From: Candidatus Saccharimonadota bacterium
Lineage (GTDB): Bacteria; Patescibacteriota; Saccharimonadia; Saccharimonadales; Saccharimonadaceae
DNA: 45,887 bases
Reading direction: 5' to 3'
Assembly: GCA_017432225.1 (NCBI GenBank)
Contig: JAFRJN010000003.1
Span: 1-45,887, forward strand
Of this stretch, positions 1 through 498 are shown one piece after another; position 1 is the first letter of the stretch; every line of letters starts with the position of its first letter. Both the position numbers and the translations under genes were made by a program. The notes beneath the pieces are model-generated. The model was given only the letters and a program-made list of their open reading frames with translations. It made no database searches and was not told the DNA's origin.

Positions 1-273
1 ATTGTTTGTTCCTACTGCTACATCTAGGTCTGTACTAGCAAAAGGTGTAGTACTAGGATTGAGAGTCAGAGATACCGTGTCAGTAGAGACTGTCACGTTT
101 AGTGATGTGCCGATATTTACATTATAGTCTAGAGATTCGGCGGAAGCGGAAGAAATAGAAATAAGTGGCAAAACTAGAAGTGCACCAATTCCAGAAATTC
201 CAAAAAGGCCACAAAAGGCCTTATTCACAGATTTGTAATTTAATTTTGATTTGATACTATGTTGTATGACCAT
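1..273 (-). CDS. Secreted/surface protein, N-terminal part (cut by window edge)
   Basis: This is a leftward reading frame of 91 codons that runs off the left edge. It starts at ATG 273-271, four bases after an AAAGGAG ribosome site at 284-278. The N-terminus has Lys residues (to about residue 18), then a hydrophobic stretch (about 24-40: FGISGIGALLVLPLISI) and a small-residue SSASA cleavage-like site near residue 45. This looks like a Sec signal peptide. The mature part is rich in Thr, Ser, Val and Asn with alternating polar residues (NVTVSTDTVSLTLNPS), suggesting an extracellular beta-rich domain. No family is recognised. It is preceded by a long folded leader (274-463) that can hide its ribosome site, so translation is probably regulated. 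Confidence 0.75.
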   Translation of the reverse strand, partial: MVIQHSIKSKLNYKSVNKAFCGLFGISGIGALLVLPLISISSASAESLDYNVNIGTSLNVTVSTDTVSLTLNPSTTPFASTDLDVAVGTNN

Positions 274-463
274 ACGGCTCCTTTGTTATTTTAGTAACCC
301 GGGAGCCTCTAAAAATAGTGAGGCACCACGAGGTGCTACAGTAACATATTTCCATAAGCATTGCCTAAAGAAACACGCACTTCCTCATGGTGCCATTTCT
401 ATGTTCCTTTAGACCTGCGATATAAAATATCGGCTGCTTTTAATGAAAATATGTAACTGTAGC
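274..463 (-). ncRNA. Structured 5' leader, candidate cis-regulatory RNA (riboswitch-like)
   Basis: The leader of the secreted protein folds extensively on the minus strand. Closing helix P1 pairs 463-445 with 353-335 (19 positions, one U-U and one G-U) and begins at the expected transcription start. Inside it are a perfect 6 bp hairpin (432-418) and helix P2 (412-402 with 375-365). The loop of P2 (394-383) is complementary over 12 bases to 333-322, just downstream of P1, giving a pseudoknot. Bases 336-323 can alternatively form a local hairpin. Further down, 307-302 (GGCTCC) pairs with 281-276 (GGAGCC), which contains the ribosome site, with inner GTTA/TAAC pairing. No known riboswitch consensus was recognised. 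Structure is seen; a regulatory role is inferred. Confidence 0.55.
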
Positions 464-469
464 AATTTA

Positions 470-498
470 ATTATATTATGCTTTTTCTGCTTGTGCAA
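470..498 (-). promoter_or_regulatory. Promoter of the structured leader
   Basis: Reading leftward, TTGCAC (498-493), a 17 bp spacer and TATAAT (475-470) form a near-consensus sigma-70-type promoter. Transcription should start near 463, the first base of helix P1. It lies back to back with the cysteine desulfurase promoter. Confidence 0.7.

Follow-up and report, generated by a model that had tools for sequence, protein, structure and literature searches.

The window analyzed here, a stretch of 45,887 nucleotides from a Candidatus Saccharimonadota bacterium (GenBank assembly GCA_017432225.1, contig JAFRJN010000003.1), opens with the N-terminal part of a secreted protein gene, which is read leftward and is preceded by a long leader. 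A first-pass annotation of the letters alone described this leader as a pseudoknotted structure with sensor and switch parts in the order expected of a riboswitch. The locus therefore raises the question of whether the leader is an RNA switch, whether it has relatives, and which genes such a switch would control.

Architecture of the leader

The leader family shares a common plan, with a long closing helix (P1), two inner arms (P2 and P3), and a pseudoknot of 10 to 13 bp between a strand in the loop of P3 (S1) and the strand that lies 3′ of P1 (S2). The coordinates of these elements in the window are listed in Table 1. All of the leader parts described in the first-pass annotation are found where it placed them on the minus strand, including a local hairpin that competes for S2. 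P1 opens at 463/464 and closes at 334/335. In the pseudoknot, S1 at 394-383 (GGCACCAUGAGG) pairs with S2 at 333-322 (CCUCGUGGUGCC) through 12 pairs, one of which is a G·U pair. The loop that the first-pass annotation called the P2 loop is that of the second inner arm, here named P3. Near the gene, GGCUCC at 307-302 pairs with GGAGCC at 281-276, where the ribosome site is located 2 nt ahead of the AUG at 273, and the hairpin claimed to cover that site is thus present. The predicted folding energy of the leader is -72.2 kcal/mol, compared with -46.8 ± 4.5 kcal/mol for shuffled sequences (z -5.6; 0/200). The U-rich loop of P2 is also found in the majority of relatives. The window copy is slightly atypical within the family because five bases separate its U-tract from the hairpin.

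Table 1 Features of the leader and its gene in the window.
Feature	Position	Strand	Basis
Leader element, upstream of secreted protein gene	274-465	minus	
-10 promoter box TATAAT	470..475	minus	sequence match
P1 5′ strand, from inferred transcription start (463)	443..465	minus	fold and covariation
P1 3′ strand, including inner P1 extension	334..360	minus	fold and covariation
P2 hairpin, loop U-rich	418..434	minus	fold
P3 5′ strand	396..415	minus	fold and covariation
P3 3′ strand	363..374	minus	fold and covariation
S1, P3-loop strand UGGCACCAUGAGG, pseudoknot 5′ partner	383..395	minus	matched versus swapped pairing
S2, CCUCGUGGUGCC, pseudoknot 3′ partner, also partner of S3	322..333	minus	pairing tests and covariation
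Local hairpin of S2, competing, GCACC/GGUGC	323..337	minus	sequence
UUUUU tract, 5 nt from hairpin in window copy	311..315	minus	sequence
S3, GAGGCUCC, partner of S2 or S4	302..309	minus	S2:S3 shuffle test and own-genome table
S4, GGAGCC, holds Shine-Dalgarno sequence	276..281	minus	S3:S4 shuffle and swap tests
Secreted/surface protein gene, N-terminal 91 codons, runs off contig	1..273	minus	ORF; paralogues match Fib_succ_major

Covariation of the helices and the pseudoknot

Compensatory changes, proposed beforehand as a check on the structure, are abundant in related leaders. RNAalifold applied to eight leaders predicted 42 pairs, 30 of which have changes on both sides. In an alignment of 82 rows into which the pseudoknot was written, and which includes one antisense echo and one truncated hit, 93.3% of cells are paired compared with 63.9% in shuffles, with 1194 versus 363 both-side changes and a score of 0.653 versus 0.17. 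This signal was lost when the alignment was slid by 1 to 3 columns. Fitting the alignment to the nested structure favors P1 and P3. The pseudoknot lies outside the fitted model; its 11 counted pairs reach 97.2% pairing, and four of them have both-side changes. P1, P3, and the pseudoknot covary massively.

Matching of the two pseudoknot strands was also assessed by exchanging partners between leaders, in permutation tests that remove shared ancestry only in part. S1 prefers its own S2 over the S2 of relatives, both in the genus of the window (z -10.5; 0/10000) and in other genera (z -8.0; 0/10000). Compensated S1/S2 combinations include AUGAGG/CCUCGU, GUAAGG/CCUUGC, GUUAGG/CCUAGC, and GAUGG/CCAUC. 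Together, these comparisons establish the helices and the pseudoknot at the level of sequence. If P3 and the pseudoknot were packed alongside P1, the lengths of P1 and P3 would be expected to correlate positively, and no such correlation is present (Spearman -0.35); the median lengths agree with such packing (25 bp versus 14 + 13).

Transcription start

Of 158 copies, 151 have a -10 box (at least five of six matching positions) that ends 4 to 6 nt 5′ of the element, compared with 14% in shuffled controls; in 133 copies the distance to the modeled 5′ end is exactly 4 nt. The position of this box, combined with the usual spacing, places the transcription start at the third base of the element. 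This base is a G, and its pair with C is retained in 81/81 rows. In the window, TATAAT at 475-470 gives a start at ~463. Transcription would consequently begin at P1, as the first-pass annotation had it, rather than downstream of the 5′ strand of P1. We found no translated leader peptide with regulatory codons of the trp type: P1 begins at the transcription start and leaves no room for one, and many copies have GUA or GUU in place of the AUG within S1.

Mutually exclusive strands

S2 has three mutually exclusive partners, which are S1, S2 itself in a short hairpin, and a later strand, S3. Among 57 non-redundant leaders from the genus, S2:S3 complementarity has a z of -26.7 relative to dinucleotide shuffles (swap test 0/5000), and in other genera the corresponding z is -10.4 (swap test 0/5000). 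S3 can in turn pair with S4, which is the ribosome site or the start region. This S3:S4 complementarity is evident within the genus (z -7.9; swap test 0/5000) and marginal outside it (z -1.8), which suggests that control of translation may not be universal in the family. Direct pairing of S2 with the ribosome site was also considered, and gave no signal (z -0.5 in the genus, 0.0 in other genera).

The seven sense-strand copies in the window's own genome each have S1:S2, S2:S3, and S3:S4 complementarity. S4 corresponds to the ribosome site in the copies from the window and from C16, C7, and C6:257, and to the first codons of the gene in C1, C6:18328, and C15. In the copy at C6:257-396, S1, S2, and S3 are altered jointly in a core that otherwise hardly varies (GGGAUC/GGUCCC/GGGAC). 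The competing-strand architecture that the first-pass annotation read as sensor and switch parts is conserved, and the 1:2, 2:3, 3:4 order of the strands is, judged by pairing potential, the logic of a switch. A search of the own genome for a trans-acting RNA carrying S1 yielded, beyond the leaders, scattered one-mismatch matches alone. Some copies from the genus (L165 and similar ones such as L223) have an extra short hairpin that encloses S3, formed in L165 by UACGCCUUU/AAAGGCGUA, and this hairpin is possibly an extra layer of control.

Distribution of the leader family

The initial leader search of the own genome found three further leaders before paralogous secreted genes, and later models raised the number of sense-strand copies to seven, all of them upstream of secreted paralogues. 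The deepest search gave nine matches in this genome and 38 to 48 in four relatives with genomes of 0.8 to 0.9 Mb. The palindromic helix also produces antisense echoes among these matches. We therefore counted distinct places by hand and obtained at least 41 for G064 and at least 36 for G056, with E < 1e-16 in every case.

Sampling at increasing taxonomic depth, with stricter filters that make the genome counts lower bounds, found a match at E <= 0.01 in at least 50 of 147 sampled genomes of the genus, and matches in at least 50 of 295 genomes of the family, spread over at least 16 of 61 genera. Further families of the order also have matches, and a phylum-wide sample gave seven positive genomes, all in one and the same order of Saccharibacteria. 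We also scanned named prokaryote genomes with a pattern that consists of S1 and S2 and does not require P1 or P3. Among the matches listed, all but two of 80 loci are in records named Candidatus Saccharibacteria, many of them from ruminant gut, and 80/80 of the listed loci also match the covariance model (E of 2.5e-6 or better). The two exceptions, L257:5793-5944 and L251:2390-2545, are on contigs from rabbit gut that were binned as Dysosmobacter and Oscillospiraceae. We suspect that these contigs are mis-binned, as the L257 gene resembles Saccharibacteria surface proteins. A 14-base pattern was scanned on viral contigs as well; a pattern that short matches by chance. Based on the sequence models, the leader is a member of an undescribed RNA family present across several genera and families of one order.

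Genes behind the leaders

In the genus of the window, an N-terminal hydrophobic segment is found in 81 of 84 leader genes, compared with 11 of 34 control ORFs, which were the raw, uncurated ORFs of the window, and 96% of the leader genes are accordingly predicted to encode secreted or membrane proteins. Of four complete proteins from the genus that were scanned, three match Fib_succ_major; two of these matches exceed the curated cut-off and one falls just short of it. In other genera the gene types are more varied, with a hydrophobic N terminus in 25 of 40 leader genes, and they include type IV secretion pilins, a surface lipoprotein domain, a DNA methylase, and a radical SAM protein.

The contig of the window (1-273) and contig C16 (L008 1-246) break at the same point inside a paralogous gene, and the last ~46 residues before both contig ends are identical (AESLDY...VGTNN). 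This shared break point, together with the many leaders of relatives that lie near contig ends, suggests repeated and possibly recombining surface genes.

A few copies are found in other settings. At L344:201-327, a leader-like element lies ~200 nt 5′ of a gene resembling that for ribosomal protein S12, is followed by a second copy of an S1/S3-type strand, and has lost the U-tract. The copy at L140:1433-1577, where no promoter box was seen, has aspS on one side and a murJ-like gene on the other, and the copy at L196:1356-1492 is ~290 nt ahead of an ileS-like frame; neither has an obvious surface gene directly behind it.

Proposed mechanism and alternative explanations

The conserved, structured cis leader with covariation that is asked of a riboswitch is present here, and sequence covariation supports its mutually exclusive strands. 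The anatomy given in the first-pass annotation is correct and its switch reading is well supported by sequence, with a riboswitch in the strict sense as one candidate form. The evidence points to a new RNA family whose members act in cis as leader switches, working as outlined below, and we assign this reading a probability of roughly 0.6. The direction of switching, the use of the terminator-like part, and the nature of the signal are what we infer beyond the structure itself. P1 would fold once transcription begins and display S1 in the loop of P3. S2, which emerges directly after P1, could then be captured by S1, pair with the later S3, or fold on itself into a hairpin that, together with UUUUU, resembles an intrinsic terminator in form. 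Free S3 would bind S4, hiding the ribosome site or the start codon. With the pseudoknot formed, S3 would be free, S4 hidden, and translation low; a signal at the P3/S1 region would open the pseudoknot, allowing S2 to take S3, which would expose S4 and raise translation. In most copies, transcription could also end early at the self-hairpin and UUUUU, an effect that would be weaker in the window copy. Besides a small molecule, the signal could be a protein, an ion, temperature, or the speed of transcription.

The terminator-like part could instead be the whole device, with the S2 self-hairpin and UUUUU as a terminator, S1:S2 as the antiterminator, and the pairing of S3 secondary. UUUUU follows S2 almost invariably (122 of 126 copies in the genus and 39 of 42 in other genera), persisting in copies such as L346 and L377 where S1 has no complementary A-run, and most copies from other genera have a perfect GACACC/GGUGUC self-hairpin. 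However, the strong S2:S3 complementarity in both sets and the S3:S4 complementarity in the genus would be superfluous for a pure terminator, L179 retains the pseudoknot while only a few weak pairs are left of its self-hairpin, and in the window, where the U-tract is 5 nt away, a terminator scan of the leader strand did not detect the hairpin. We consider attenuation unlikely to be the sole function of the leader. Given the short stem of the self-hairpin, 5 to 6 bp, and the displacement in the window copy, we regard attenuation of transcription as a probable second layer of control.

A leader that does not switch would also be expected to have some of these properties. An extreme 5′ helix could protect the mRNA or dock a shared RNA-binding protein, which fits both the finding that almost every copy has P1 at its transcription start and the presence of long helices whose sequence is free to vary. 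That explanation does not account for the conservation of S1, S3, and S4 as mutually exclusive partners with matched pairing, and we regard it as improbable. Many copies per genome, often at contig ends, would likewise be expected of a DNA-level palindrome or the end of a mobile element that does not act as RNA. We rejected this idea, to which we give almost no weight, on the bias in wobble pairs: G·U pairs outnumber A·C mismatches by 289 to 36, so that the constraint acts on the transcribed strand, and both the fixed distance to the promoter and the constant orientation relative to the gene also argue against it. The cis-acting switch thus remains our preferred reading.

Relation to known RNAs and significance

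No Rfam family matched the window leader, or the element in 20 related loci, at the gathering score, and relaxed thresholds gave nothing relevant, in agreement with the first-pass annotation, which recognized no known class. In the open-license literature, we found no earlier description of the family. Like riboswitches with pseudoknotted aptamers that sequester the ribosome site, these RNAs are 5′ leaders with a compact, covarying pseudoknot fold and with strands whose mutually exclusive pairings would conceal the ribosome site. In contrast to them, the leader family matches no Rfam class and has few conserved unpaired core nucleotides, and its ligand binding is putative. The mutually exclusive 1:2, 2:3, and 3:4 pairings are shared with four-strand attenuators of the trp leader type; however, in the leader family 3:4 would hide the start region without forming a terminator, 1:2 is a pseudoknot, and a leader peptide has no room. 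LOOT RNA (RF03000) is likewise structured, occurs in the same kind of genome, and precedes a gene for a small membrane protein, but it differs in sequence and secondary structure, and its model does not match the element. In L356, LOOT matches 2745-2862 and not the element at 1501-1648, whereas our model R3 finds the element and not the LOOT site. The LOOT RNA in L356 is 1.1 kb downstream of a leader copy and is a second orphan RNA class in that genome.

To our knowledge, the number of copies per genome would be very high for any class of cis-regulatory RNA. From ~41 loci in a genome of ~0.9 Mb, we estimate that one RNA family precedes up to ~5% of genes, nearly all of them for surface or membrane proteins. 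Judged from the sequences, this looks like an RNA-based control system for surface display in these Saccharibacteria. The chances appear evenly balanced that the surface proteome of a group of epibiotic Saccharibacteria is controlled mainly by an undescribed class of RNA switch, with 40 or more copies that respond to one shared signal in a genome of <1 Mb. In Saccharibacteria and other Patescibacteria, control of the change between the free and the host-attached state has been termed completely unknown, and control of translation is suspected (PMC11665869). Such a family would give a direct handle on this regulation, and a natural inducible part for genetics.
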